A DNA stretch of 64,000 bases from Subtercola boreus (lineage in GTDB: Bacteria; Actinomycetota; Actinomycetes; Actinomycetales; Microbacteriaceae), in NCBI RefSeq assembly GCF_003399625.1, contig NZ_NBXA01000006.1, positions 1 to 64,000 of the forward strand. Direction: 5' to 3'. The notes beneath the pieces are model-generated. The model was not told where the DNA came from. It saw nothing but the letters and a program-made list of their open reading frames with translations, and did no database searches. Below are positions 2,288 to 59,129 of the stretch, one piece after another. How positions within the stretch are numbered: the first letter of the stretch is position 1; each line of letters opens with the position of its first letter. The translations under genes and the position numbers were made by a program.

Positions 2288-4050
2288 GGCAACTCCACTC
2301 TCAGCCGGGTCCCCTTGTCGAGCTCGGACGAGACGACGAAGGTGCCGCCGAAAGCTTCGACCCGGTCCCTGAGACCCTTCAGCCCGGTGCCTGCATCGAC
2401 GCTGGCGCCGCCTCGCCCGTCGTCTTCTATGACAACCGTCAGGTATTCGTCTTCACTGTTCAGGCTCACGATGACGACGGAGGCCCCGGAGTGCTTCACA
2501 GCATTGGTCAGGGCCTCTGCCACCACGAGGTAGGCGGTCTGGGCTGTCTGCTGATCGAGCTCGCGGTCATCGATGTCGCCTTCGAGTCGCGCGGGGATGT
2601 CGAGTCTGTCGACCAGGTCTTCTGCTGCGGCGAAGAGCCCGCGTTCGATCAGTGCGGCGGGCAACACCGCATGCACCAGGTGGCGGAGTTCAGCTGCCGC
2701 CTGGTCGATCCGCGTGCGGAGCGCGGTCGCGGCCCGTGCCGTGACGAACGGGGTGGTGTCGGCGTTGGCGATCTGCTGGGCCTCGAGGGCGAGGAGCACG
2801 AATTGCACCTGAAGGCCGTCGTGCAGGTCGCGGGCGATGCGGCTGCGCTCCCTGTCGGCGGCCTCGACCAGACGCATCCGCGACAGTCCCAGTGCTTCGT
2901 TGCTCGCCACGAGGGCTGCCGTCAGGCGTTCGCGGTCCAGGGCGACGGCAAGCACCCGCCCTGCTCTCTCGACCGAGCCCGGATCGGCGATCATCCGGCT
3001 GTCGTATTCGATCGCACCGGCCAGGCGGGATTCGACGTGCACGTCGTGCCTGACCCGGGGCGACTGTGCTGTCGGGCTCTCTGCCGGGGCGCCCCTGCTG
3101 TCGATGAAGGTCTCCCGTTCCTCAGACCAGTAGACAACGCGCAGGGAGTCGTCGCCGAGGGCTCCGGCCAGTGCCTGCGCGACGGCGGATCGCGTGGATC
3201 CGGGGAGGCTGAGCCAGGTGCTGAGCGCGTCGGCCTCGGCGGTGCGGGCGAACCCGCCGGCCAGTACCCCCACCAGGAAGGCGAGGGGGATGCCCGCCAT
3301 GGCCACCAGTTGAACTGCCCCGACCGCGACGCTGTCAGCTCCGAACAGGGGCAGTACGTTGCTCGCGAACGGAATGATCAGCACCGCGAGGATGCCGTAG
3401 AGGTACAGCGGCAGCAGCACCCGGAGGTTCTTCGGGTCGGCAGAGCGCAACCGATCGACGAGCAGCGCCGCCGTGACGAGGAACACGGCGAGTCCTGCGC
3501 TCGCCTGCGCTGCGAGCAGCACCCGGGCTTCCGCGGGGGGGAGGAGATAGTTCGGCACCTGCAGGATGAGGCACACGACGTAACCGGCGATCACCGTGGT
3601 GACGGAGAGGCGGCCGCGCAGTTGGCCTGAGGGGAACGCGTGCAGGAGGTGCACCGTCACGGCGAGGATCAGCGTCGCGGAGATGGTGCTCACCTCGGTG
3701 AGAACAGGCAGACCGAGATTGCCGATGCCTGCGAGGAACATTGCCACCGCCCCGAAGAGCAGCAGCGCCCCTGTGCCGTTCGAGGGGCGCCGCCACCAGG
3801 CGAGGAGTCCGGTGCTCGACCAGGCCCAGAACTCGAGGGTGAAGGCCGCGGGGATCCAGAACTCCGTCGGCCCGTTCCAGCCGACGGAGAGCTGGATGCC
3901 GCCGAGCAGAAGGGCGAACAGTGACAGCAGAACGAGGCCTGCCGCGCGCGACGGCGTTCGGATGGGTCGCACGAGCGTCGGAGTGGGCCGTTTTGAAGGC
4001 TTCATGTCGGTCGTCACGCTGCATCCCCATTTCGCAGGCGCGACCGTCAT
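2275..4050 (-). CDS. Membrane sensor histidine kinase, HisKA_3 (NarL partner) type
   Basis: The protein has about 591 residues. The N-terminal half contains about eight to ten hydrophobic segments (from GLVLLSLFALLLGGIQLS to PLAFLVGVLAGG), a multi-pass sensor region. A cytosolic linker is followed by the HisKA_3 phosphorylation site RSRIARDLHDGLQ and an HATPase domain with EALTNAVKHSGA and DDGRGGA, ending in GTRLRVELPCAS. ATG 4050 is chosen because gaaagg precedes it by 8 bases; GTG 4017 and ATG 4005 are in-frame alternatives. It is coupled to the regulator gene downstream. The signal it senses cannot be told. Confidence 0.88.
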   Translation of the reverse strand: MTVAPAKWGCSVTTDMKPSKRPTPTLVRPIRTPSRAAGLVLLSLFALLLGGIQLSVGWNGPTEFWIPAAFTLEFWAWSSTGLLAWWRRPSNGTGALLLFGAVAMFLAGIGNLGLPVLTEVSTISATLILAVTVHLLHAFPSGQLRGRLSVTTVIAGYVVCLILQVPNYLLPPAEARVLLAAQASAGLAVFLVTAALLVDRLRSADPKNLRVLLPLYLYGILAVLIIPFASNVLPLFGADSVAVGAVQLVAMAGIPLAFLVGVLAGGFARTAEADALSTWLSLPGSTRSAVAQALAGALGDDSLRVVYWSEERETFIDSRGAPAESPTAQSPRVRHDVHVESRLAGAIEYDSRMIADPGSVERAGRVLAVALDRERLTAALVASNEALGLSRMRLVEAADRERSRIARDLHDGLQVQFVLLALEAQQIANADTTPFVTARAATALRTRIDQAAAELRHLVHAVLPAALIERGLFAAAEDLVDRLDIPARLEGDIDDRELDQQTAQTAYLVVAEALTNAVKHSGASVVIVSLNSEDEYLTVVIEDDGRGGASVDAGTGLKGLRDRVEAFGGTFVVSSELDKGTRLRVELPCAS

Positions 4051-4151
4051 TCTGACCGCCTTTCCACTATGGCACTGCGGCGCACTCGAGCTGCCGTCCC
4101 CCCGACCGATTGACGGTGTTCGCGGGTGCGGCAGCTCGAGAACCGGGCTCA

Positions 4152-4547
4152 TCAGCTGGTTCGGCGGCGGCAGCTGCTGCGGCGACGTGCGAACGCGAGG
4201 ATCAGCCCGCCGATCGAGAGCGCTGCGATGCCGCCCAGCAGTCCGGCATCGATGGACGATGCTCCGGTGTTCGCCAGTGCGGCCAGTCTGGCCGGGGAGT
4301 TCGCGCCATGCAGCGAGGCGGTCGGAATCCCTCCCGTCGGAGAGCCGGGCAACAGCACAGCGGGGGTGCCGCCTGACGGATCCGGTTCCTCGCCGCCCAG
4401 GCCGCCTTTCGTCAGCAGCTCGCTTTTCATCGAAACACGGTGGACGACCTTGGACTCTGTGCCGGTGCCACCCTTTTCGCTGTAGCTGCCCCAGGTTTTG
4501 TAGGGGGCCCGAACCCTGGTGGGCCCCTTCTGGAGGGTGGCCGGCAC
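4152..4547 (-). CDS. LANTG sortase-anchor tail, perhaps the detached C-terminus of the upstream beta-lactamase-like protein
   Basis: The frame ends in a clear cell-wall sorting signal: LANTG, then a hydrophobic stretch (AGLLGGIAALSIGGLILAF), then ARRRSSCRRR. LAxTG is the form recognised by class E sortases of high-GC actinobacteria. A Gly/Pro/Ser-rich linker precedes it. There is no signal peptide and no good ribosome site at GTG 4547 or ATG 4430, so a free-standing protein is doubtful. The frame is the same as that of the serine hydrolase ending at 4563, separated by its TAG and five codons. It may be the C-terminal part of an ancestral anchored hydrolase, or a remnant of another gene. Confidence 0.45.
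   Translation of the reverse strand: MPATLQKGPTRVRAPYKTWGSYSEKGGTGTESKVVHRVSMKSELLTKGGLGGEEPDPSGGTPAVLLPGSPTGGIPTASLHGANSPARLAALANTGASSIDAGLLGGIAALSIGGLILAFARRRSSCRRRTS
4504..4527 (-). terminator. Hairpin just after the serine hydrolase gene
   Basis: A perfect 7-bp GC stem (GGGGCCC / GGGCCCC) with a 10-base loop lies about 36 bases past the stop of the minus-strand gene ending at 4563. Only ctacaaaa follows, not a U-run, so termination is possible but not certain. It falls inside the LANTG frame. Confidence 0.4.
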
Positions 4548-4562
4548 ATCGGAGGAGCACCG

Positions 4563-5804
4563 CTACGGGGTGTACATCGCGTCGATCAGCTTCCGCGAGA
4601 TCATCGCAGCCGGGCCCTGTCCGTTCGCGGCCGGCGCGAGGTTCGCCCACACCACGAGGGTGACATCGCTCACCGGGTCGTAACCCATGAAGGAGTTGAA
4701 GCCGGGGAGCTCGCCGGTATGACCGTAGAACTGCCCGAACTGGCCGAGGTTCCACCCGTACTTGGTGGCATCCGGGGCATCCGAGGTGGCCAGCGGGCTA
4801 GCCATGCGCGCCTTCTGCATCTCGGGGTCGAGCAGGCCCGGCGTCTTGCCGCCCAGCGCCTCGACCCAGGTCGCGAGGTCACCGATGGTCGAGATCCCCG
4901 ATCCGGCCGACCAGGCCCAGGACGGGTTCTCGAGGGTGCCATCGTTCGGCAGGAAGGTTCCGGCATCCGCCTGCTGCAGGAGGTCGGGTGGAAGCTTCGA
5001 GGAGGCGATGGTGTTCACGTTCGTCCACCAGAAGTAGCCGTCGGAGTGCGGGCTCGGGAGGCTGCTGTCACCGAGCTCCGGAAAGGAGGTCTCGGTGAGG
5101 CCGAGAGGCGTGAACAGGCGATCCGCGAAGATCGTGCGCAGCGGCTTGCCGTCGAGCTTCTCGGCAATGAGCCCGAGCAGGATGGTGTTGGTGTTCGAGT
5201 AGTGGTATTTCGTTCCCGGTGCGAAGTCGACCGGTAGCGCCAGGCCCATGGCCACGAGTTCCTCGGGCTGCCACACGCGCTGTGGCTCAGCGTCGAGAGC
5301 AGCGTTCAACGCGTAGGTCTCTGTGTAGTTGGCGAGACCGCTCCGCATCATGAGCATCTGCTCGATCGTGATGTTGTCGCCGTTCGGCACGTCGGGCCGG
5401 TACTTCGACACCGGGTCGGCGAGAGCGATCTTCCCCTCCTGTACGAGTTGGAGGATGACGGTGCCCGTCCAGGTCTTCGTGTTCGACCCGATACGGATGT
5501 GATCATCGATGGAGACCGGCGTGCTGCCACCGGGCGCGGTCACGCCGTAGGTGGCCGTGAAGTCGCCCTCCGGGGTGCGGAGCAGCATGGCGGCGCCCGG
5601 CTGCCCGTACTCTTTGGCCGTCGCCTCGAAGAGGGCGGTCAGGCCGGCCTGGTCGAGAGGCTTCAGGGTCTTGGCCGCGGATGTCGCGGCCGGAGCTTCT
5701 GTCGATGTCGCCACCGGAGTGGTCGTGGTCTGCCCCGTGCAGGCGGTCAGTACGAATGCGGTGACCAGGGCCGCGGCGGCTGTTGTCGTTCGTAGAGCTC
5801 TCAT
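4563..5804 (-). CDS. Secreted lipoprotein of the serine beta-lactamase / D-Ala-D-Ala hydrolase family
   Basis: The protein has 413 residues and begins with a lipoprotein signal ending LTAC (Cys near 22), so it should be anchored outside the membrane. The beta-lactamase fold motifs are present: SNTK (Ser107, Lys110), YSN near 202-204, and HTG in FYGHTGELPGF. The family (class C beta-lactamase-like, DD-peptidase, esterase) acts on D-amino-acid peptides or esters; the substrate is not clear. ATG 5804 is preferred, with aggagg ten bases upstream; TTG 5810 is too close. It follows the PBP4-like gene directly (TGA 5809-5807), as the third gene of an operon. Confidence 0.85.
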   Translation of the reverse strand: MRALRTTTAAAALVTAFVLTACTGQTTTTPVATSTEAPAATSAAKTLKPLDQAGLTALFEATAKEYGQPGAAMLLRTPEGDFTATYGVTAPGGSTPVSIDDHIRIGSNTKTWTGTVILQLVQEGKIALADPVSKYRPDVPNGDNITIEQMLMMRSGLANYTETYALNAALDAEPQRVWQPEELVAMGLALPVDFAPGTKYHYSNTNTILLGLIAEKLDGKPLRTIFADRLFTPLGLTETSFPELGDSSLPSPHSDGYFWWTNVNTIASSKLPPDLLQQADAGTFLPNDGTLENPSWAWSAGSGISTIGDLATWVEALGGKTPGLLDPEMQKARMASPLATSDAPDATKYGWNLGQFGQFYGHTGELPGFNSFMGYDPVSDVTLVVWANLAPAANGQGPAAMISRKLIDAMYTP

Positions 5805-13332: not shown

Positions 13333-14967
13333 ATGTCAACAGCCGACCGTATCGAGATCCGTGGCGCCGACGCCGCACGGTTCGACGAGATTCTGACTCC
13401 GGATGCCCTCACCTTCGTGACGCGCCTGCATGACGCGTTCGCGCACCGCCGCCAGGAGCGACTGCACGCCCGCATGGAACGCCGCGTCACCGTCGAGAAC
13501 GGCCGTGACCTGCGCTTTCTCGCGGCAACCGCCTCGATCCGCGCCGACGACACCTGGCGCGTCGCCGGCGCCGGGCCGGGCCTCGAAGACCGACGGATCG
13601 AGATCACCGGACCCGTCGACCGCGAAAGCGCCGTGAGGGCGCTGAACTCCGGGGCCAGGGTCTGGGGCGCCGACCTCGAAGACGCCACCAGTCCGACCTG
13701 GCCGAACATCGTCGAAGGCCAGCTCACGCTCTTCGACGCGGTGCGGCGCCAGCTCGAGTACACCGACGACGACGGCCGTACAGAGCGACTCCGCACCGGG
13801 GAACTGCCGACGATCGTGATGCGCCCGCGCGGCTGGCACCTGGTCGAGAAGCACCTCCTGTATACCGACCGCGCCGGCCAGAGGCAGGCGGCATCCGCAT
13901 CCCTCGTCGACTTCGGGCTCTACCTGTTCCACAACGCGCAGAAGCTGATCGACTCCGGAACGGGGCCGTACTTCTACCTGCCGAAGATCGAGGACCACCT
14001 CGAGGCTCGGCTGTGGGACGATATCTTCACGTTCAGCGAGAACGCGCTGGGCCTGCACCCCGGAACCATTCGGGCGACGGTGCTCATCGAGACGATCTCG
14101 GCCGCATTCGAGATGGAGGAGATCCTCTACGAACTCCGCGACCACTGCGCGGGGCTCAACGCGGGGCGCTGGGACTACCTCTTCAGTTTCATCAAGAGCT
14201 ACCGTCATCGTGGGTCGCAGTTCGTCTTCCCCGACCGGGAGAACATCCCCATAACGGCTCCCTTCCTGCGGGCCTACACCGAGCTCCTGGTCTCGACCTG
14301 CCACAGGCGCGGGGCGTATGCCGTCGGGGGCATGAGTGCATTCATCCCGGATGCCTCCCGGCCTGAGCTCACCGAGATGGAACTCGGGCAGGTTTCCGAA
14401 GACAAGCGGCGGGAGGTGCAGGACGGCTTCGACGGTACATGGGTCGCCCATCCGGCTCTCATCCTGACGGCTCGAGCCGAGTTCGACACGGTGCTCGGTA
14501 CCCAGCCGAACCAGATCGACCGGCTGCGACCCGAGGTGCAGGTCACGGCCGAACAGCTGCTCGACGTGCGATCGCTCGACAAGCGAGTCACGGATGCCGG
14601 GGTCACCTCGAACATCTCGGTGGCGCTCCGCTACATCGAGAGCTGGCTGCGGGGGATCGGGGCGGTGGAGCTCGAGAACATCGTCGCCGACGCTTCGGCC
14701 GCCGAGATCTCGCGCGCCCAGCTGTGGCAGTGGATCCACTACTCGGTCGTCACGGTCGAGGGCACGCGCATCACCACCGAGTCCGTGATCGCCGAACTCG
14801 CTGCCCAGGTGCGCGCAGCCGATCGTTTCGACGGCGACCAGTTCGACACCGCGGCCGATCTCGTGCGCCTCGTCGCGCTCGAGGAGGAGTTCCCGACCTA
14901 CCTGACGATTCCGGCGTACGCGCACTACCTGGTCGACATCGCCGAGAGCCTGGCGATCGCGGCCTGA
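13333..14967 (+). CDS. aceB: Malate synthase A
   Basis: The protein has 544 residues, typical of isoform A. Family blocks include VWGADLEDATSPTW with the acidic residues of the active site, TIVMRPRGWHLVEKH, TVLIETISAAFEMEEILYEL and GRWDYLFSFIK. It condenses glyoxylate with acetyl-CoA to malate. The start ATG 13333 follows gaaagga. Lies 30 bases after aceA and 56 bases before a second, unrelated-length malate synthase (glcB), so this operon encodes two enzymes for one reaction. Both look intact. Confidence 0.97.
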   Translation: MSTADRIEIRGADAARFDEILTPDALTFVTRLHDAFAHRRQERLHARMERRVTVENGRDLRFLAATASIRADDTWRVAGAGPGLEDRRIEITGPVDRESAVRALNSGARVWGADLEDATSPTWPNIVEGQLTLFDAVRRQLEYTDDDGRTERLRTGELPTIVMRPRGWHLVEKHLLYTDRAGQRQAASASLVDFGLYLFHNAQKLIDSGTGPYFYLPKIEDHLEARLWDDIFTFSENALGLHPGTIRATVLIETISAAFEMEEILYELRDHCAGLNAGRWDYLFSFIKSYRHRGSQFVFPDRENIPITAPFLRAYTELLVSTCHRRGAYAVGGMSAFIPDASRPELTEMELGQVSEDKRREVQDGFDGTWVAHPALILTARAEFDTVLGTQPNQIDRLRPEVQVTAEQLLDVRSLDKRVTDAGVTSNISVALRYIESWLRGIGAVELENIVADASAAEISRAQLWQWIHYSVVTVEGTRITTESVIAELAAQVRAADRFDGDQFDTAADLVRLVALEEEFPTYLTIPAYAHYLVDIAESLAIAA

Positions 14968-15023
14968 CGCCGTGAACCGCTCTGCGCTGTAGATCCCCTG
15001 ACGTTGTTGAGAGGAATGGAACG

Positions 15024-17249
15024 ATGACCGATCGAATACCGGCGGCGGGCCTCTCCGTCGTAGCCCCGCTCCACCGTTTCGTCGCCGAAGCTCTGCCGCA
15101 GGCGGGCCTCGACGCCGACACGTTCTGGGCGGGGGTCGCCGATCTGCTGCGGGACCTCACCCCGCGGAACGCAGAGCTGCTGCAGATCCGGGACACACTG
15201 CAGAGCCAGATCGACGACTTCCACCGGGCTCACCCCGGAGCGGTGGATCCGGTGGAGTACACCGCCTTCCTGGAGGGCATCGGCTATCTCAAAGCCGACG
15301 GGGGCGATGCGGAATCCGCTGCCGCCTTCGTCATCACCGAGGGCGTGGACGTCGAGATCCGGGCGCAGTCCGGCCCGCAACTCGTCGTTCCGCTGCTCAA
15401 CCGCCGGTTCGCGGCCAATGCCGTGAACGCGCGCTGGGGGTCGCTCTACGATGCCCTCTACGGCACCGATGCGATCGACCGCTCGGGCGAGCTGGCGGTC
15501 GGAGCGGCCTACAACCCGGTGCGCGGAGCGGCGGTCGTTGCGGCTGCGCGCCAGGTGCTCGACGGGGCGATCCCGCTCGAGTATGGCGGCGTCGACGGCG
15601 GCAGCGCCAGCCACGCCGACGCGCTCGGGTATTCCGTCGTCGGTGGTGCCGTCGAGGTTCGCACGCAGCGGGGAACGGCCACCCTCGTCGATCCCGCGGC
15701 CTTCCTCGGCTACCGCGGAGCCCCGGCCACGCCCGAGGCCCTCGTCTTCGTGCACCACGGGCTGCACCTCGAGATGGTGATCGACCCCGGGCATCCGATC
15801 GGCCGCACCGACAGTGCGAGCATCTCCGACGTGCTGCTGGAATCCGCCGTCACCACCATCATGGATCTCGAAGACTCGGTCGCTGCTGTCGACGCCGACG
15901 ACAAGGTGGTCGGTTACCGCAACTGGCTCGAATTGATGTCGGGAACCCTGTCAGAAGAGGTGGTGAAGGGCGGCCGATCCTTCGTTCGCGGCATGAATCC
16001 CGATCGGGAGTACACGGCTCCGGATGGGGGCACAGTCACCCTCCGAGGCCGGTCGCTGCTCTTCGTGCGGAACGTCGGGCACCTGATGCGCACCGACGCG
16101 ATCCTCGACGGGAACGGCGAGGAGGTGTTCGAGGGAATGCTGGATGCGGTGATGACCGCGCTCGGTTCCGCCTCCGACATCCGGGGTCGAAGCGCCCTGC
16201 CGAACTCGCTCACCGGGTCGATGTACATCGTGAAACCGAAGATGCACGGGCCGGCCGAGGTGGCCTTCGCCGTGGAGCTCTTCGCCCGCGTCGAACAGCT
16301 GCTCGGCCTGCCAGAACGGTCGATCAAACTCGGCATCATGGACGAGGAACGGCGCACGTCGGTGAATCTGGCGGCCTGCATCAGGGCCGCCGCCGACCGG
16401 GTGGTCTTCATCAACACCGGATTCCTCGATCGCACCGGCGACGAGATCCACACCTCGATGCTCGCCGGGCCCTTCGTTCGGAAGGCCGAGCTGAAGACCC
16501 AGCCGTGGATCGCAGCGTACGAGGCGTCGAACGTCGACATCGGTATCGCCGCCGGCCTCCCGGGGCGCGCGCAGATCGGCAAGGGGATGTGGGCCATGCC
16601 CGATCTCATGGCCGACATGCTCGAACAGAAGGTGCAGCATCCACTGCAGGGTGCGACCACCGCCTGGGTGCCCTCGCCGACCGCCGCGACCCTCCACGCG
16701 CTGCACTATCACCGCGTGGATGTGCCCACCGTGCAGCGGCAGCTCGCCTCGCGCACTCCGGCACCGCGGGCGGAGATCCTCCGCATTCCGCTGGCCACCC
16801 GGCCGTACAGTGCGGCAGAGCGGCAGGCCGAGCTCGACAACAATGTGCAGGGCATCCTCGGCTATGTCGTGCGCTGGGTCGACCAGGGCATCGGATGCTC
16901 GAAGGTGCCCGACATCCACGACGTGGCGCTGATGGAGGACCGGGCGACGTGTCGCATCTCGTCGCAGCACGTGGCGAACTGGTTGCTGCACGGCGTCATC
17001 ACGGCGGAGCAGGTGGACGAGTCGCTCCGGCGGATGGCGGCGATCGTCGACTCGCAGAACGCGGATGACCCGCTCCACCGGCCGATGGCTCCGGGCTTCG
17101 ACGGCGGTGCGTTCCTCGCCTCGCGGGCGCTCATCTTCGAGGGCATCCGGCAGCCGAGCGGCTACACCGAACCGATCCTGCACCACTACCGCCGCCTCGC
17201 GAAGGCGCAGGCCGACGCCGCGGGGAGGCGGCTGGCGGCTGCGGTCTGA
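15024..17249 (+). CDS. glcB: Malate synthase G
   Basis: The protein has 741 residues, the length of isoform G. Typical blocks are [86 protein letters not shown] and [16 protein letters not shown]. It performs the same condensation as AceB but is a larger, monomeric type. ATG 15024 follows gagagga. Placement directly after aceA-aceB suggests one transcript. Having both G and A forms adjacent is unusual; one may serve glycolate/glyoxylate use, the other the acetate shunt, but that is inference. Confidence 0.97.
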
Positions 17250-49480: not shown

Positions 49481-50521
49481 CTACAGGTGCTCGGCCACGT
49501 TGATCACGAGCTTGCCCCGGGTGTGGCCCTCCTCGAGGCGGCGATGTGCTTCCGCGGCATCCGACAGCTCGAAGACCTCGTCGATGTGTACGTGCACGTC
49601 CCCCGAGTTGATGAGGCGCGTGATGATGGTGAGCGTGGCAGCGTCGGGGGAGACCTTGTAGGTCGTCGCGCGAAGGCCCAGCGCATGGGCGTCCTCGATC
49701 ACACTCGGCCAGCTGCCGGTGGGAGCGTTGATGATCAGCCCGCCGGGGCGGAGGGTCTGCAGGGAGCGGGTTCCCGTGTCGTCGTGCACGTTGCCGATCA
49801 GATCGATGACCACATCCACCCCGGAGACGGCATCCTCGAAGCGGGTCGTCGTGTAGTCGATGACCTCTGCGGCGCCGAGTTCGCGCAACCAGCTGGCGTT
49901 CCGGGCCGACGAGGTGGCGATCACAGAGGCGCCGAAGTAGGCCGCGAACTGCACCGCGAAATGGCCGACCCCGCCGGCACCGGCATGGATCAGGATGCGC
50001 TGTCCCTGATGCGCCTTGGCGACATCCACGACCATGCCCCACGCCGTCAGCGCGGCGACAGGAACCCCCGCGGCCTCGATCAACGAGAGCCTGCCGGGCT
50101 TCTTGCAGAGCTGCATCGCGGGAACGGCGGCGTACTCGGCGTAGGAGCCCTGGCCGCGCGGGGCGCTCAGCATGCCGTAGACCTCGTCGCCGACCTTCAA
50201 CGGATGCCCCTCGTAGGGCGACTCGGCCACGATTCCGCTGAAGTCCTGGCCGAGGATGTACGGGTACGAGGCGATCGCTGCCGACACGCCCCGGCCCGCA
50301 CGCGTCTTGACGTCGAGCGGATTGACGCCCGCGCCTGCAACCCGCACGAGCACCTCCGCGTTGATGCGGATCGGCAGGTCGACCTCGCTGACGTGCAGCA
50401 CGTCCGGGCATCCGGTCTCCTCGATCACGGCAGCGCGCATACTCGTCGGTCTGTTCTCGGGCAGCTGCACGTCGGCTCGCGGATTGGACAAGTCACTCAC
50501 TCCGGTCATGTGCTGCGTCAT
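49481..50521 (-). CDS. Zinc-free MDR quinone oxidoreductase
   Basis: The protein has 346 residues. MDR blocks: MRAAVIEETGCPDVLHVSEV near residue 28, NPLDVKTRAGRG, LGQDFSGIVAE and the cofactor loop AGAGGVGHFAVQFA. It lacks the alcohol-dehydrogenase zinc ligands. ATG 50521 has aaggag; ATG 50440 (MRAAV) is an alternative that matches the family start better. It is a second, distinct copy of the activity seen at 44908. Confidence 0.87.
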   Translation of the reverse strand: MTQHMTGVSDLSNPRADVQLPENRPTSMRAAVIEETGCPDVLHVSEVDLPIRINAEVLVRVAGAGVNPLDVKTRAGRGVSAAIASYPYILGQDFSGIVAESPYEGHPLKVGDEVYGMLSAPRGQGSYAEYAAVPAMQLCKKPGRLSLIEAAGVPVAALTAWGMVVDVAKAHQGQRILIHAGAGGVGHFAVQFAAYFGASVIATSSARNASWLRELGAAEVIDYTTTRFEDAVSGVDVVIDLIGNVHDDTGTRSLQTLRPGGLIINAPTGSWPSVIEDAHALGLRATTYKVSPDAATLTIITRLINSGDVHVHIDEVFELSDAAEAHRRLEEGHTRGKLVINVAEHL

Positions 50522-52210: not shown

Positions 52211-52244
52211 CACCCGTTCTGGGGGGTGCCGACCGGCGTAATGA
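52211..52244 (+). repeat. 34-bp conserved element, copy 1, upstream of module 1
   Basis: This stretch is identical over 34 bases to 53728-53761. It begins CACCCGTTCTGG and ends CGGCGTAATGA, and contains a G-run. Here it can form GGCACCC/GGGTGCC, while copy 2 has one end changed. About 35 further bases resemble each other (cttctg-ctctctt...tcgagggca). It lies 80-115 bases before the mini-propeller frame, so it may be a promoter or a leader element. Confidence 0.75.
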
Positions 52245-52324
52245 ATCGGGTCCTTCTGTCTCTCTTCACATCGAGGGCACCGTGCCCGCCACGAATACTG
52301 TGCCCGCCACGAACGAGGACCGTC

Positions 52325-52549
52325 TTGCTCCCTTCCCGGATTCCCCTGATCGCGACCGCCGTGTGCGCAACACTGCTCGTCGTCGCGCCTGTCGCCTTCT
52401 CCACGTCGCTCGTTCAGGCGCTGCCGACGGATCGCACCTCCGACGACGGTCAGCAGGTGGTCGTTGTCTCCTCCATTTCCGGGGTAGACGGCCAGTCCCA
52501 CGATGTGGGCGTCTCGACGACAGGAACAGTGACGATCGATGTCACGTAG
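52325..52549 (+). pseudogene. Internally deleted propeller protein (mini-A), possibly a coupling leader
   Basis: This 74-residue frame starts LPSRIPLIATAVCATLLVVAP, aligned with the signal peptide of the 908-residue protein at 53824, and ends DVGVSTTGTVTIDVT, aligned with its last strand DAGVTTTGTVTIDVK. The 830 or so residues between are missing. TTG 52325 has gagg at the same position as its full-length counterpart. Its stop overlaps the start of the protease gene by 11 bases exactly as in module 2, so it may now serve only to deliver ribosomes. Confidence 0.75.
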
Positions 52550-53594
52550 AACCCTCCGCCGCCGGATGCTCGTGGGCGGCCTGATCGCGGCGTCGGTCGT
52601 CGGCCTCTGCCCCCTTCCGCTTTCTGCATCTGCGACCGCAACGGGGAAGTGCATCTGGTACGACTTCGATGTCCAGCCGACGACGCCGGGTTCACCGCGG
52701 GCTCCGCTGGAGGACTGTGCGCTGCACCCGGAGTGGCCGGCGGAGGCGTCGTACTACTGGGACAAAGAGAAGACGGTCATTTTCGAGCCGAGGACCCAGC
52801 AGTTCGACTACTCGGCTTTCAGCCAGCTGAACCCCTTCACGGGCGTCGGCTACAGCTTCCGCAAAGCGAACGAACTGTTCCCCGACACTTCCGACGACGC
52901 GCACGCCCGTGTCGCGATGGAGTATGCGCAGATGTCCCTGACTCCGAAGGCTCGCGCGCTCGAACAGCGGCGGGGGGTGACGACCGGTGACATCTGCCAG
53001 GTCGTCCCGATGCTGTGGTCAGACAACGAGATCAAAGACTGGAACAGCTACGCCATGCTCCCTCCGAGCCCCCGTCCGGACGGCAGGACGGGCACGTACA
53101 CCTACAGCCTCTCCACGACCCTGACAGCTGAGCAGCGCGCTGTCATCGCAAGGGGACTGGTTGACTTCGCAAACATGATCGACGGGAGCAGGCAGCCCCG
53201 GCTGGTCGAGTGGGAGAGTGGCGATCTCAACCCGCCGGTGATCACGTTCACCAATGCCCCAGGTGGGTTCGATGACCCCGATCGCGTGGCCCAGGCGTTG
53301 GCGGTTCGGAACGACAACGGCCGGGACGGGTTGTCCCGCTGGGTCAACGGGAATGTCGAGTTCAGGGACAAGCCAGGATCCCTCTCGTCGTGGACTGTGA
53401 TACATGAGATTCTCCACGTGTATGGTTTCGGGCATCTCGGACCGTCCCGGGACCTCCAAGTGATGTCGGCGGTGGGTCCCACCCCCGATGACCTGAACCG
53501 GGGACGGTGGAGCGGAGATCAGCCACCAGCAGTCAACAACGGGGCCGACGCATGCACGAAGGTGGGCGTCGATGCCGCGGCAGCACCCCAATAG
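52539..53594 (+). CDS. Secreted metzincin-like metalloprotease (B1)
   Basis: The protein has 351 residues. A signal peptide (RRTLRRRMLVGGLIAASVV to about LSASA) is followed by a Cys-containing N-region. The zinc site is HEILHVYGFGH (His289, Glu290, His293, His299), with a candidate Met-turn at Met309 (VMSAV), the hallmark of metzincins. It should be an extracellular protease. Its closest relative in the window is B2 at 56540, which shares FDYSxFSxLxPF, FRKANELFPDTSD and TYTYSL. The start overlaps the mini-A frame, with no strong ribosome site of its own. Confidence 0.75.
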   Translation: MSRRTLRRRMLVGGLIAASVVGLCPLPLSASATATGKCIWYDFDVQPTTPGSPRAPLEDCALHPEWPAEASYYWDKEKTVIFEPRTQQFDYSAFSQLNPFTGVGYSFRKANELFPDTSDDAHARVAMEYAQMSLTPKARALEQRRGVTTGDICQVVPMLWSDNEIKDWNSYAMLPPSPRPDGRTGTYTYSLSTTLTAEQRAVIARGLVDFANMIDGSRQPRLVEWESGDLNPPVITFTNAPGGFDDPDRVAQALAVRNDNGRDGLSRWVNGNVEFRDKPGSLSSWTVIHEILHVYGFGHLGPSRDLQVMSAVGPTPDDLNRGRWSGDQPPAVNNGADACTKVGVDAAAAPQ

Positions 53595-53727
53595 TCGCCG
53601 GATGCCCGGGAGTCCGGGGAGCGGCTCAACGCCTGCTGGCGCCGAAACCTTCGACGTGTGCCTGAAGCAGGCGCTCCGGACATACTGAGCCTCACCGCTC
53701 GGAGGGCGGTCAGGCTGTGCCGGTCGT

Positions 53728-53761
53728 CACCCGTTCTGGGGGGTGCCGACCGGCGTAATGA
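53728..53761 (+). repeat. 34-bp conserved element, copy 2, upstream of module 2
   Basis: Exact copy of 52211-52244, lying 63-96 bases before the propeller start. The conserved block continues with similar but not identical sequence (cttctg-ctctctt, tcgagggca) up to the gagg ribosome site. This suggests that the whole module, including its control region, was duplicated. Confidence 0.75.
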
Positions 53762-53823
53762 TTCCGGGGCTTCTGACTCTCTTCTTCTCGAGGGCATGTC
53801 GCCCACCATGAATGAGGATGCTC

Positions 53824-56550
53824 GTGCTTCGTAATCGAATTCCCTGGCTCGCCACTGCGGCCTGCGCCACCCTGCTTCTCGCCGCACCGGCCGTGTTCCA
53901 GGCCTCCGCTGCCCTGCCGCTGCCGCCGGACCGCACCTATCACGATGTGCTCGAGTACGCCGGGCCGACTCTGGCCGGAGCGGGCACGTCTGTGTCGATC
54001 TCGGGGGATGGCCGCTACACGGTCTTCGACTCCGTCGACAGACTGACGACCGATGCGGTCGGTGACCAGAAGCACGTGTACCGCCGCAGTACCTCCGACG
54101 GCTCGCTGCAGTTGGTCTCGACGCATTCGCGCACCGACGGGGACGACGGGGCGTCGTTCGGGGCCTCGATCTCGGCCGACGGCCGCTTCGTCGTCTTCAC
54201 CACCACTGATCGCAAGGTGCTCCCCACCGACCCGGGCGGCGCGAGGCAGATCGTGCTGAAGGACATGGACACGGGAAAGATCACCTGGGTGTCGTCGCAT
54301 CGCAGCACGGCCGCTGCCGACGCCCTCGCCGTGCGGGATGCCGGAAACTCGTCCCCCGTCATCTCGGCCGACGGGCAGCACGTCGCGTTCGTCTCGAGCA
54401 TGCCCGGGGTGAACACCGTGGGCGGACCGACGACCGGGGTCGGCAACGTGGAGATCTTCGATGCCGCGACCGGAGACGTCACCAACGTGACATCCGGGGT
54501 CACAGACGCCGGTGCTGTCGTGGCGGCCCACGGATCGAGCGGACAGCCGGCCCTGTCGGCCGATGGCCGCTTCGTCGTCTTCACCTCCGACGCCGACAAC
54601 CTCGGTGTCGCGGCGACGACGCCCGCACCGGCGGCGACGCCGGGCGCGCGCCTGAACCACGTCTACCGGCTCGACCGCACCACCGGTACGAAGAAGCTGG
54701 TCAGCGTCTCGGCCTCAGACACCGTTGCCGATCTCACGAAGACCGACGGCCACTCCCACTCCCCGTCCATCTCGGCTGACGGCACCGTCGTGGGCTTCAT
54801 CTCCGACGCCACAAACCTGGTGCCGAGCGGAGATGTGCCGAAGACCACTCACCTGCCGGATGCGTACGTGCGCGACTTCTCCACAGGGCAGACCCATCGC
54901 GTGTCGCTGATGCTGAACGACGTGGCCGCACCCGACCACAAGGACTCGACGGGCGTCATGCCCTCCACCATGCGGACGCGGTACTGGCGCGAGGCGGTCG
55001 GCGGGGCATCCGGGATCGCCGTCTCGGCTGACGGCCACAGCGCGCTGCTCACCTCGATCAGTCCCCTCGTCTGGATCTCGGGCGAGTGCTACAGCTGCCA
55101 GAAGTTCGTCGACGACAATGACGCGCTCGACCTCTACCGGGTGTCGCTGTCAGACGACGGCCACCCCGACGACATGCAGCCGGTCTCAGTGCGTCGAAAC
55201 ACCCAGGACGGCACGACGGATGCCCGCAACATGCAGACCGTCGTGCTGTCGAACACGGGGGAGGGTGACTCCATCGCCGACGGCACAACGCCGATGACGG
55301 CGGACGGACGCATCGTCGTCTACGGTTCGCTCGCCGACAACCTCCGCGGTTGGGACTCCACGCGATGGGTGATCGCTGGCGACATGGGTTTCCTGCCCCA
55401 GAAGGCGCCTGATCCCCACGAGACCGAGGCGCACAACGCCTCCCTCCTCACGGTGCCCCACTACCTCGACGGAGGCTACCCGGGAAGCTCGGAGCCGCGC
55501 GTGCGCATGTTCCTCAGCAACACGAACGCCTTCGACATCCGGCTCGCCGTGCCGCCGGCCACCCGCGCGGCTCTCAGCCAGCACCCCACCGACCGTGTCG
55601 ACTACGAGACGCGTCACTCGGCGCTCCCGATCCTGAGCGAGCAGCCGGCGCTCACCTCGGCCAGCAGCTTCCTGGCGCCCTCCGCTCTGGGCAGCGGGGC
55701 TTCCGGCGTGGTCTACGGACTGAGCGTCACAGCGAAGTCAGCCGGCAGCGCGGTCGTCGTTCTCGGATTCGACCACCTCGACCTCGTCAGCGAGGCCAGC
55801 GTGCCGACCGGGTGGAAGCGCGCGAAGGACGACGTGGCACACACCCTGACCTACACGAACACGCACCTCTCGGCGGGGGACGCCGCAGACTTCTCGCTGC
55901 ACCTGAAGCAGAACGATGCCGACAAGGCGCCCACGGCCTCGGTGCAGGTCATCGCCAACGGCACCCGGACGCTCGCCTCGGCAGACGTTCGTCCGGCCGC
56001 GCCGACCTGCCGTACCTCGGCCGTCAAACAGGTCGTCGTCGCCGGGCTCGCCACGCCGATCCGCGATGCGCAGTGCCTCGCCCCCGGTTCGACGCTCAGC
56101 GTCACGGCCGACCACGGCTCGGCTTCGGTCAGCGCGGCGGGGGTGCTGACCTACACTCCGGATGCTGCCTACCGCGGTGATGCGGGCATCCGGGCGGTCG
56201 CGACCGATGCGGCCGGCCGCACGAGCCTCCCCTCCGTGGTGACTGTCGCGGTCGGGGCTCCGGCTGTCGCCGCCGACGACCACTACGCGACCGCAGCTGG
56301 TGTCGTGCTGACGGTGGATGCGGCCCACGGCCTGCTCGCCAACGATGTCTTCCCGACGATGGCCTCGCCCTGGCACATCAACGAGGGCTACCCGCCCGCC
56401 CACGGCACGGTCGTCATCGACGACAACACCGGTTCGTTCCGGTTCACGCCCGAAGCGGGTTTCACCGGCCAGGTCAGCTTCCGCTACCAGGCCCAGGCCC
56501 GCGATGCGGGCGTCACAACCACAGGAACGGTGACCATCGATGTCAAGTAG
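53824..56550 (+). CDS. Secreted PD40/TolB-like beta-propeller protein with C-terminal Ig-like domain (A2)
   Basis: The protein has about 908 residues. Signal peptide to about AALPLP. Six or more PD40 blades carry the pattern (S/T)ADG..VV(F/Y).S: SADGRFVVFTTT, SADGQHVAFVSS, SADGRFVVFTSD, SADGTVVGFISD, SADGHSALLTSI, TADGRIVVYGSL. A beta-rich region follows, then repeats around DAAYRGDAGI and a Big_9-like domain (AADDHYATAAGVVLTVDAAH, ending GTVTIDVK). GTG 53824 has gagg six bases upstream, as in the deleted copy; ATG 53812 and 53818 are alternatives. No sortase or membrane anchor is seen. It overlaps B2 by 11 bases. Confidence 0.8.
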   Translation: MLRNRIPWLATAACATLLLAAPAVFQASAALPLPPDRTYHDVLEYAGPTLAGAGTSVSISGDGRYTVFDSVDRLTTDAVGDQKHVYRRSTSDGSLQLVSTHSRTDGDDGASFGASISADGRFVVFTTTDRKVLPTDPGGARQIVLKDMDTGKITWVSSHRSTAAADALAVRDAGNSSPVISADGQHVAFVSSMPGVNTVGGPTTGVGNVEIFDAATGDVTNVTSGVTDAGAVVAAHGSSGQPALSADGRFVVFTSDADNLGVAATTPAPAATPGARLNHVYRLDRTTGTKKLVSVSASDTVADLTKTDGHSHSPSISADGTVVGFISDATNLVPSGDVPKTTHLPDAYVRDFSTGQTHRVSLMLNDVAAPDHKDSTGVMPSTMRTRYWREAVGGASGIAVSADGHSALLTSISPLVWISGECYSCQKFVDDNDALDLYRVSLSDDGHPDDMQPVSVRRNTQDGTTDARNMQTVVLSNTGEGDSIADGTTPMTADGRIVVYGSLADNLRGWDSTRWVIAGDMGFLPQKAPDPHETEAHNASLLTVPHYLDGGYPGSSEPRVRMFLSNTNAFDIRLAVPPATRAALSQHPTDRVDYETRHSALPILSEQPALTSASSFLAPSALGSGASGVVYGLSVTAKSAGSAVVVLGFDHLDLVSEASVPTGWKRAKDDVAHTLTYTNTHLSAGDAADFSLHLKQNDADKAPTASVQVIANGTRTLASADVRPAAPTCRTSAVKQVVVAGLATPIRDAQCLAPGSTLSVTADHGSASVSAAGVLTYTPDAAYRGDAGIRAVATDAAGRTSLPSVVTVAVGAPAVAADDHYATAAGVVLTVDAAHGLLANDVFPTMASPWHINEGYPPAHGTVVIDDNTGSFRFTPEAGFTGQVSFRYQAQARDAGVTTTGTVTIDVK

Positions 56551-57583
56551 AACTCTTCGAGCCGCAGGCGTGGTCGCGGGGGCGCTCGTGCTGCTGCTCA
56601 GTGGCCAGTCGGTAGCCCATGCCGGCGTGGCCGACGGCGAGTGCAAGCTGGGCGAGACCCGGTTCCTGGAAGGGGAGCCCGGTTGGTCGCAGTCTGTGTC
56701 CCAGGTCTGCGGCGGCAACTTCACCTGGAATACGGAGGCGACCTATTACTGGACAGATGACACGAAGGTCATCTGGGAGCCGTGGGAGGACAACTTCGAC
56801 TATTCGTTCTTCAGCGATCTGGACCCGTTCAAGGTCGACAGCTACAGCTTCCGCAAGGCCAACGAGCTCTTCCCCGACACGTCGGATCGCGAGAAGGCGC
56901 TCGCCAAGAGCCAGTATGCGATGAGCGCCATGTCTGCGAAGGCGCGCGCGATCGAATCACGGGGAAACGTCAAGAATGACGACATCTGCCTCGTCGCCCC
57001 GGAACGCTACTCAGATGCAGAGATCGCCGCAAATACTGGATGGTTGCCTCCACAGCCCACCCCTGACGGATCGGTCGGCACCTACACCTACAGCCTCGCG
57101 AACAACCTCTCGGCGGAGCAACGGGCGGTGGTGTTGGCGGGGCTCGCGACCTTCGACGAGGCCCGAAGCGGAAGTCAGCAGCCGAAGATGGTCGAATGGC
57201 AGCCGGGCAGTGCCGTGCCGCCCGTGATCACCTTTCAGAGCTTTCCAGAGGGTGTCACGTTCGCGGACGAAAGGTATGCAGACGTCTTTCCTCTGAAGCT
57301 TGATGCGGGCCGCGACGGTCTTCAACGATTGGTGTCCGGCCAGATCAGACTCACGCCCGAAGCAGACAACCTGTCGGAGTGGGTGATCGTGCATGAGCTC
57401 CTCCATGCGTATGGTTTTCGGCACAACCCGGATGTCACCGACGACGAGCTGATGTCGCCGAGCCGCACGAACGGATGGGTGCACAACTCTTGGAGCATGA
57501 CCAGTGAGGACACTCCAAAGGGTCATGCCAAGGTCGACAGCTGCACCAAGGCGGGCATCGAGGCCGCCTCCGCGCCCAGGTAG
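56540..57583 (+). CDS. Secreted metzincin-like metalloprotease (B2)
   Basis: The protein has 347 residues. A signal peptide ends near VAHAGVA. The zinc site is HELLHAYGFRH (His285, Glu286, His289, His295) and the candidate Met-turn is LMSP (Met305). Cys pairs are present (GECKLG, QVCGGN, DICLVA, DSCTKAG). It is a paralogue of B1; the shared block FRKANELFPDTSD is unchanged. ATG 56540 lies inside the end of A2, so translation depends on it. No prodomain motif was recognised. Confidence 0.78.
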   Translation: MSSRTLRAAGVVAGALVLLLSGQSVAHAGVADGECKLGETRFLEGEPGWSQSVSQVCGGNFTWNTEATYYWTDDTKVIWEPWEDNFDYSFFSDLDPFKVDSYSFRKANELFPDTSDREKALAKSQYAMSAMSAKARAIESRGNVKNDDICLVAPERYSDAEIAANTGWLPPQPTPDGSVGTYTYSLANNLSAEQRAVVLAGLATFDEARSGSQQPKMVEWQPGSAVPPVITFQSFPEGVTFADERYADVFPLKLDAGRDGLQRLVSGQIRLTPEADNLSEWVIVHELLHAYGFRHNPDVTDDELMSPSRTNGWVHNSWSMTSEDTPKGHAKVDSCTKAGIEAASAPR

Positions 57584-57592
57584 CAGCCCCGG

Positions 57593-58228
57593 TCAGCGCC
57601 GCTGCATCAGGTCGAGCAGCTGGTCGGCGAGCCGCACCAGTTGCTCGATCTCGTTGTCGTCGCGGTCGACCCAGCGGCACTCGGGGTCGGGGGCGACGGG
57701 CACGAACGCCGAGTGCTGCTCCCAGACCACGAGGGTGCGCTCGGCGCCGAGTACGTACTGCTGCCACCAAACCTGCCGGAGGTAGTGCCGGGGGATCGAG
57801 CGCCACGCCTTGTTGGTGGTCTTGATCTCGGCGAGCTCGGTGTCACCCGTGGACGGGTTCACCGCGATGCCGTCGGGCGTGGCGAGGTGCAGGGGCCGCC
57901 CGTGCGCGTGGAACAGCGTCGTCGACGGCTCGATTCCGTAGTGTCGGCGCACCCACCCGGCGAGAACCGGCTCACGCACACGGCCGTGGTCGGTGTAGAC
58001 GTTGCCGCCGAAGTTGTTGCCGTTGATCTTGTCGTAGGCGGTGTTCTCGACCGACTTGCGGGTCGTGAGACGCGCGGCGTCCGTCGCCGTGACGCCGCGG
58101 CTGCGGGCCCGGATCCACGCCACTCTGTCGTTCGAGTCGGCGACGATGCGCGACAGATGTGCGGGTGGGGTGGCAGCGACCGGCTCGTCTTCCTCCCACG
58201 GGAAGGTCAGTGTCAAGGCGGTCGTCAC
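57593..58228 (-). CDS. YqaJ-like (PD-D/ExK) nuclease domain protein
   Basis: The protein has 211 residues. The nuclease core is suggested by GVTATDAARL, TPDGIAV with the metal-binding Asp, AEIKTTNKAW with ExK, and the following helix RHYLRQVWWQQYVLGAERTLV with the Q-x-x-Y type motif. YqaJ domains resemble phage recombination exonucleases, but stand-alone actinobacterial forms have no known role. GTG 58228 has ggagg eleven bases upstream. No phage gene is near. Confidence 0.7.
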   Translation of the reverse strand: MTTALTLTFPWEEDEPVAATPPAHLSRIVADSNDRVAWIRARSRGVTATDAARLTTRKSVENTAYDKINGNNFGGNVYTDHGRVREPVLAGWVRRHYGIEPSTTLFHAHGRPLHLATPDGIAVNPSTGDTELAEIKTTNKAWRSIPRHYLRQVWWQQYVLGAERTLVVWEQHSAFVPVAPDPECRWVDRDDNEIEQLVRLADQLLDLMQRR

Positions 58229-58286
58229 TGAACCATTGTCCTCCCGTTCTGCTGAGAGGATGGAACCAACACAGCAAGGGAGCTCC

Positions 58287-59129
58287 ATGCGTATTGCAGT
58301 CACCGGCGGTTCGGGAAAACTGGGCCGCACCGTCGTCGAACAGTTGTCGGCAGCAGGGCATGAGGTGTTCAACCTGGATGTCGCGGGCAGCCGCGACACG
58401 AGCATCCGTGTCGACTTCACTGACTACGGCCAGACGATCGATGCGCTGCTCGGCGTGAACGACCGGCATGCGGGTCTGGATGCTCTGGTGCACCTTGCCG
58501 CGATCCCGGCCCCGGGCATCCTGAGCGACGTCGCGACCTTCGACAACAACATGCTGTCGACCTTCCACGTGCTGCACGCGGCACGACGGGCCGGCATCAA
58601 GAACATCGTCACCGCGTCGAGCGAGACGGTGCTCGGCCTGCCGTTCGACACCCCGCCGCCCTACATTCCTGTCGATGAGGAGTACCCGGCGCGCCCGGAG
58701 AGCGTCTACTCGCTCACGAAGCACCTCGAGGAACAGCTCGCGATCGAACTGACCCGGTGGGACGAGGAGCTGAAGATCGTCGCACTGCGCTTCTCCAACG
58801 TGATGTACCCGGCCGACTACGCCGAGTTCGCGTCGTTCGATCAGGATGCCCGCCTTCGCAAATGGAACCTCTGGGGCTACATCGACTCCCGTGACGGGGC
58901 CCAGGCCGTCGAGAGGGCTCTCGAGTGGGAGGGCCGGGGATTCGAACGATTCATCATCGCCGCCGCCGACACGGTGATGACCCGCAGCAACGCCGAACTG
59001 GTGGCGGAGGTCTTCCCCGACACTCCCCTCCGCGGCGAGCTGGGCGAGAACACCACGCTGCTCTCCATCTCGAAGGCGAGGCGCGTACTCGGCTACGATC
59101 CGGAGCACAGCTGGCGGGATGCCCGCTGA
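58287..59129 (+). CDS. NAD-dependent epimerase/dehydratase
   Basis: The protein has 280 residues. The cofactor motif is MRIAVTGGSGKLGRTVVEQL and the catalytic YSLTK lies in ESVYSLTKHLEEQL, with Ser in TASSETVLG. It is an extended short-chain dehydrogenase acting on a nucleotide sugar or similar compound. ATG 58287 has aaggga. Its partner substrate is unknown. Confidence 0.88.
   Translation: MRIAVTGGSGKLGRTVVEQLSAAGHEVFNLDVAGSRDTSIRVDFTDYGQTIDALLGVNDRHAGLDALVHLAAIPAPGILSDVATFDNNMLSTFHVLHAARRAGIKNIVTASSETVLGLPFDTPPPYIPVDEEYPARPESVYSLTKHLEEQLAIELTRWDEELKIVALRFSNVMYPADYAEFASFDQDARLRKWNLWGYIDSRDGAQAVERALEWEGRGFERFIIAAADTVMTRSNAELVAEVFPDTPLRGELGENTTLLSISKARRVLGYDPEHSWRDAR

Follow-up and report, generated by a model that had tools for sequence, protein, structure and literature searches.

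A conserved, clade-restricted gene pair for a PD40 propeller protein and a matrixin-like protease in Subtercola

The window analysed here is a stretch of 64,000 nucleotides from Subtercola boreus (contig NZ_NBXA01000006.1, positions 1 to 64,000 of the forward strand, assembly GCF_003399625.1), and positions 52,211 to 57,583 of it hold genes for two kinds of predicted exported protein, a PD40 propeller protein (A) and a metzincin-like zinc protease (B). The A-B pair is a genuine conserved unit that is restricted to one clade. With a probability of roughly 0.45 it is best explained as a co-regulated and translationally coupled module, in which a secreted matrixin-like protease would be made as one unit with its companion A. 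Along the plus strand, a promoter-like motif is followed by the stump of an A gene and by B1, and a second such motif is followed by A2 and B2, with these features:

52211..52244, plus strand: 34-bp element, copy 1, with the left (-35-like) half of the promoter-like motif at its 3' end
52237..52264, plus strand: promoter-like motif CGTAATG-N16-CTCTC, 5' of the A1 stump and B1
52226..52549, plus strand: open reading frame of the A1 stump, combining a predicted signal peptide with roughly the final 20 codons of the A family, frame kept
52539..53594, plus strand: B1, putative matrixin-like metzincin, 351 residues, signal-peptide-like start, HEILHVYGFGH
53728..53761, plus strand: 34-bp element, copy 2
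53754..53781, plus strand: promoter-like motif, 5' of A2 and B2
53812..56550, plus strand: A2, 912 residues, predicted PD40/TolB-like propeller and C-terminal sandwich domains, signal-peptide-like start
56540..57583, plus strand: B2, putative matrixin-like metzincin, 347 residues, signal-peptide-like start, HELLHAYGFRH; start codon within the A2 end

In the genomes examined, full A and strong B occur together. Near-full-length matches to A (>500 bits) are found in eight of the twelve Subtercola genomes, and the same eight encode B (seven in one search, G301 in further searches). Among 398 genomes of the family Microbacteriaceae, whose Subtercola members do not include G303, nine have A at E<=1e-60 and 13 have B at E<=1e-4, namely the same nine and four with weak matches (E 4e-6 to 6e-5) that span some 30-50 positions around the zinc site. 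The nine belong to Subtercola and one other genus, which contributes two genomes and has B in two of its 16. B lies directly downstream of 11 of the 12 A genes, and the twelfth, in G303, is truncated where its contig ends, the B of this genome being found on a different contig beside a fragment of the A end. According to the predicted start codons, A and B overlap at eight of 12 junctions (counted with the junction of the A1 stump and B1 and without G303), are within 6 nt of each other at three, and have an unclear junction at one (G300). Conserved adjacency and the search for B homologues without an A neighbour had been proposed as checks in the first-pass annotation of this DNA, and both turned out in favour of the pair, as no strong match to B turned up outside an A locus among the genomes examined. 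G302, G325, and G093 each have a further B copy downstream, and decayed further copies occur in G007 and on contig 21 of the source genome. Contig 21 carries a third A-B pair (L004:4910-8774), whose A and B are 44% and 25% identical to A2 and B2, and the decayed B follows this pair at 216900-217420.

Searching B2 against the contigs of the genome collection gave no match, and in an order-wide draw B was detected at E<=1e-8 in one of 396 genomes, the source genome itself, with the 20 non-matching genomes shown being of the same family. Together with the two of 16 genomes in the second genus these results speak against a wide distribution of the module, although misses are possible because the genome draws score only the top loose first-look candidates (five per genome for B, two per genome for A). 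A cargo of plasmids or phages was also rejected, given that a search of the plasmid and phage collections with B2 gave nothing at E<=1e-5 and that the pair occupies the same slot in the source genome, G007, and G248. PD40 proteins elsewhere do not have such a neighbour: of 77 further PD40 loci (the best 80 of at least 471 relatives of A less three from Subtercola, some on short contigs), none has either HExxHxxGxx[H/D] in a frame of at least 90 codons or a match to the B profile at E<=1. Among these best 80, only the three Subtercola loci match A beyond about residue 575.

B1 and B2 share 42% of their residues, begin with stretches that resemble signal peptides by eye, and each start 11 bases within the preceding reading frame, exactly as first described. 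The HExxHxxGxxH motif and the Met-turn reported for both proteases are also there, with the Met ten residues past the third zinc ligand in each. In the 16 intact B proteins, the two decayed copies being excluded, HExxHxxG is invariant, His serves as third ligand in 14 and Asp in two, and a Met follows 8-14 residues past the third ligand in all, as judged by sequence. Thus the zinc site, whose lack of conservation had been named beforehand as a point against the system, is kept throughout the intact proteins; in the decayed G007 copy the Gly of the motif is lost (HEIAHVFQFDD). Two tandem B genes in G093 (L053:4279-6604) carry Asp as third ligand (HELLHAYGVKD and HELLHAYGVSD). In snapalysins Asp likewise replaces the third zinc His. 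Past the judged signal peptide all 16 proteins have four cysteines, of which three occupy invariant columns and the fourth is close to the mature N-terminus; their number suggests two disulfides.

The comparison with metzincin families, another of the proposed checks, led to the matrixins. Pfam Peptidase_M10 is matched at E<=0.01 by six of the 16 B members (best 1.1e-6) but not by B2, and the Pfam matches of B1 and B2 as single proteins are under all cut-offs. The B family profile matches MMP-20 (E 5e-6) and, more weakly (7e-4), small neutral proteases, which we take to be of the snapalysin type. The B2 model is only moderately confident, with a mean predicted local distance difference test (pLDDT) score of 61 and better values at residues ~150-300. 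Its best Foldseek match is the catalytic domain of MMP-2 (E 1.8e-4), MMP-1 and meprin are also among the best, and template modelling (TM) scores by target reach at most 0.58 among the 50 best matches listed. The matrix metalloproteinases (MMPs) proper, M10A, have a propeptide with the PRCG cysteine switch, and inspection of the B alignment revealed no conserved PRCG motif. Sequence and fold comparison together support the predicted catalytic fold and zinc site of B, and B is placed in the metzincin clan as a matrixin-like protease, without being named as a member of M10.

A2 was correctly described as a PD40 propeller protein with an Ig-like tail: Pfam matches PD40 repeats at E 3.3e-13 and, at the C-terminus, a Big_9 Ig-like domain at E 1e-14. 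The model (mean pLDDT 74) has repeated strands at ~50-570, with parts of 460-570 at low confidence, and in our own reading about three beta-sandwich domains at ~615-911, where Big_9 covers 817-909. Foldseek matches include the TolB-like structure 2ojh (E 1.5e-9). The top matches are integrin alpha chains at a TM score of ~0.24, and therefore the likeness is one of layout only and no homology is claimed. The PD40 repeats and the modelled strands, which run from 53 to 568, identify the N-terminal region as a putative TolB-like/PD40 propeller. Within the genus, there are also paralogues of the C-terminal half of A without a propeller (L158:5667-7310, minus strand; L160:1996-3798, 3847-5019, and 14866-16881, plus strand), several of which are located downstream of the same promoter-like motif.

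The first-pass annotation had described the locus as a duplicated two-gene module. This applies to only one half of it, since deletion has reduced the first propeller gene to a stump, whereas the two proteases, the elements, and the overlaps are present as described. The two copies of the 34-bp element are identical, and a search at up to three mismatches gives two matches versus zero expected from 100 shuffles. The reading frame 5' of B1 encodes 107 residues at most; the open reading frame tool places its start at GTG 52226, and according to the comparison with G007 TTG 52325 is likelier. Its protein aligns to residues 2-46 of A2 and has no match in Pfam up to E = 1. At the DNA level, the G007 locus is matched at the front with 81% over 255 bp (leader and end of the signal peptide) and at the rear with 84% over 69 bp (end of the A gene), and no match to the G007 A gene was found between these blocks. 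The short length, the missing Pfam match, and the restriction of the DNA match to the ends rule out A1 as a propeller gene. From the element to the stop codon the distance is 339 nt for the stump and 2823 nt for A2, and the stump is best read as a former A gene that would have lost about 2.5 kb by an in-frame internal deletion. As the A-type stop is retained and B1 starts 11 bases within, such a deletion would have preserved both the frame and the overlap. The locus therefore has two protease genes and one propeller gene, and the picture of two propeller-protease pairs was wrong in one of the four genes. Overall, the earlier observation is partly confirmed and its interpretation partly supported.

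The source genome, G007, and G248 have the pair in the same slot between the genes at 49481-50521 and 57593-58420, and an XRE-type gene beside the pair in the window is matched in G007 only. Compared to G007 and G248 the flanking proteins are 82-99% identical (main alignments), A2 76-78%, B2 41-51%, and B1 51-76%. Thus B evolves far more quickly than the flanking proteins, and A only somewhat more quickly. The groupings of A and B broadly match: one comprises the window contig (C6), G007, G248, G286, and G300, the other C21, G301, G302, G325, and the second G093 locus. At the first G093 locus the B genes belong to neither group, with ~20% identity to B from other loci. For 11 pairs, G303 and second copies being excluded, the A and B distance matrices correlate with r = 0.80 (0 of 10000 permutations). 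The ratio of nonsynonymous to synonymous changes (dN/dS) could be computed for three of ten gene pairs, where A and B change under purifying selection: by NG86, dN and dS are 0.147/0.80 for B1 and the G007 B, 0.142/1.13 for the B and 0.069/0.535 for the A of G286 and G300, resulting in ratios of 0.13-0.18 (0.06-0.13 by YN00).

The conserved 34-bp element, confirmed as two identical copies, ends with the left half of CGTAATG-N16-CTCTC. Visual comparison shows this motif at equal spacing and with up to a few changed bases 5' of nine of the ten Subtercola A starts, the A1 stump included, the exception being G301, in which the spacing differs; it was seen 5' of neither of the two printed A genes of the second genus. 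At up to one mismatch the source genome has 16 sites versus six for the reversed pattern, of which nine precede exported-looking reading frames (two in the window, seven elsewhere including A3-B3), one precedes a hairpin, and six are unexplained. A refined motif, CGTAATGGA-N13-ACTCTCT, is found at up to two mismatches at 74 sites in all 12 Subtercola genomes, while the controls in the same genomes give four sites (reversed pattern) and six sites (spacer one base longer). At up to one mismatch in the family draw, there are 36 sites in 11 of 11 Subtercola genomes, four sites in four of the 387 other genomes, three of these in one genus, and a single site for the reversed control across all 398 genomes. 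Thirty loci were drawn from the 74 sites, many of them mutual orthologues and two of them A genes, and at 22 a reading frame with a strongly hydrophobic N-terminus starts 29-140 nt from the motif start, compared to 259 of 3000 random positions in related loci and one of six off-by-one sites. Of the remaining eight loci, six run into a single conserved hairpin whose loop is rich in C; at L202 the signal peptide is borderline, and L209 is unexplained. The motif set is probably an as yet undescribed sigma-factor regulon of exported proteins in Subtercola. Motif sites in the source genome (G000) include:

C3:75849-75877, minus strand: motif site
C1:210382-210410, minus strand: motif site
C2:147442-147470, plus strand: motif site
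C21:212876-212904, plus strand: motif site
C18:101045-101073, minus strand: motif site
C22:61652-61680, plus strand: motif site

The promoter of sigma-BldN in Streptomyces is given as CGTAACN16CGTTGA (PMC2375139). BldN controls the exported chaplin and rodlin proteins. The Subtercola motif has the same CGTAA left half and the 16-base spacing. However, its right half is ACTCTC instead of CGTTGA, so that the motif was not assigned to the BldN-type promoters. At the hairpin (L187:1390-1507, minus strand, and five relatives), a perfect motif copy, which sits in a gap next to a gene judged by eye to be purD-like, is followed by a conserved hairpin with a CCCCCC loop. Over the six genomes this region has 25 predicted pairs in two hairpins; two of these pairs are changed on both sides, and some pairs of the first hairpin are broken. 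With no match to Rfam in the three loci tested, the hairpin is a candidate small RNA of the motif regulon.

In the preferred explanation, a regulator of the exported-protein set, perhaps an extracytoplasmic function (ECF) sigma factor, would act on the promoter in front of A-B, and translation of B would be coupled to the end of A by a start codon within or beside the A stop. Both proteins would leave the cell via their putative signal peptides. B would fold as a matrixin-like zinc endopeptidase with an additional N-terminal region and two disulfides, and would cut proteins outside the cell. A would have no catalytic role and would consist of a TolB-like propeller as head and beta-sandwich domains as stalk; according to the linkage of the genes it may hold, stabilise, or target B extracellularly. 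Since one A was lost with the frame and the B1 overlap kept, A2 may serve both B1 and B2. Several observations weigh against this explanation. B1 persists without an A of its own and several loci have two B per A (G302, G325, and G093, with decayed copies in G007 and on contig 21), so that a strict 1:1 partnership is not required. The co-occurrence is based on one genus plus two genomes of another. B diverges far faster than A (the window contig versus G248: A 76%, B 51%), which fits poorly with a fixed binding interface, and the correlation of the A and B matrices is expected from shared descent alone.

A rival explanation is that of two independent exported proteins that share an operon and do not touch, B digesting proteins and A binding polysaccharide or surfaces. 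Because the motif places A and B in a large set of exported proteins that are not related to one another, their shared expression requires no contact, and the stand-alone paralogues of the C-terminal half of A under the same motif and the retention of B1 after the loss of its A are in line with independence. However, the co-occurrence in nine of nine genomes, the adjacency that persists through deep divergence, and the start/stop overlap at eight of 12 junctions are more than shared regulation needs, and we consider independence less likely than the preferred explanation. Less probable again, and speculative, is that A acts in trans as a detached propeller exosite that catches targets for a separate matrixin, in a module that would diversify rapidly because its targets change and that would belong to the undescribed sigma regulon. 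Signs of diversification are the tandem B copies, the loss of one A, and the identity of B (41-76%) as against that of the neighbours (82-99%).

Exported proteases with companion genes are already known, so that a PD40 propeller as companion of a metzincin would be a variant of this theme. AprI and BamI of Pseudomonas aeruginosa, the companions of AprA and Mep72, are small inhibitors. For Mep72 and BamI, binding was found in vitro with refolded proteins (PMC4334185), and in Tannerella forsythia the genes of the potempins, which are described as small, are directly 5' of the KLIKK protease genes (PMC7296668). By analogy to what is proposed for AprI/AprA, BamI/Mep72, and the potempins with KLIKK, A could be an inhibitor or chaperone that silences B until it is outside the cell. 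The companion gene is upstream and translated first, pairs of this kind have been described (PMC4334185, PMC7296668), and the even number of four cysteines argues against a cysteine-switch zymogen and leaves a place for an outside inhibitor. We nevertheless regard this as improbable, given that B1 persists without its own A, that the ~115 residues of the N-terminal region of B could act as propeptide, and that A2 has 912 residues in several domains, unlike the small inhibitors. The A-B pair has in common with these systems that an exported protease is encoded beside a companion gene. It differs in that the companion is a PD40 propeller with beta-sandwich domains instead of a small inhibitor-only protein, in the start/stop overlap and the tandem B, and in the distribution, which in our genomes comprises two genera of the Microbacteriaceae only. 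In the text available from PMC4334185 and PMC7296668, none of the companions of Mep72, AprA, and KLIKK is described as a propeller. Least probable is that A is a substrate, which B would trim or free from the cell surface: a protease is indeed co-expressed with a large multi-domain protein of surface type, but no cleavage site or anchor was identified in A, B copies exceed A copies at several loci, and B1 is still there though its A is lost.

No description of a PD40-metzincin gene pair was found in the literature searched, and neither was one of a metalloprotease with a beta-propeller in Microbacteriaceae; the main text of the S. endophyticus paper does not contain the words protease, peptidase, secret-, PD40, or propeller. 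Compared to secreted TolB/PD40 propellers, A is similar in its N-terminal part, which matches PD40 and 2ojh, and differs by its constant sandwich region at the C-terminus and by the metzincin gene next to it. Animal MMPs (M10A) combine a matrixin catalytic domain and a four-bladed hemopexin propeller in one chain. B resembles them by its profile and model matches to MMP catalytic domains and by the propeller alongside. In contrast to the MMPs, however, the propeller of A is separate, larger, and of the PD40/TolB type, and B does not have the conserved PRCG motif. If A steers or holds B, the pair would correspond, as two bacterial genes, to the single propeller-plus-matrixin chain of animal MMPs and would be a testable case of metzincin specificity gained from a separate protein. 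In addition, the promoter-like motif provides a list of exported proteins and a candidate small RNA that may be under one regulator in Subtercola.

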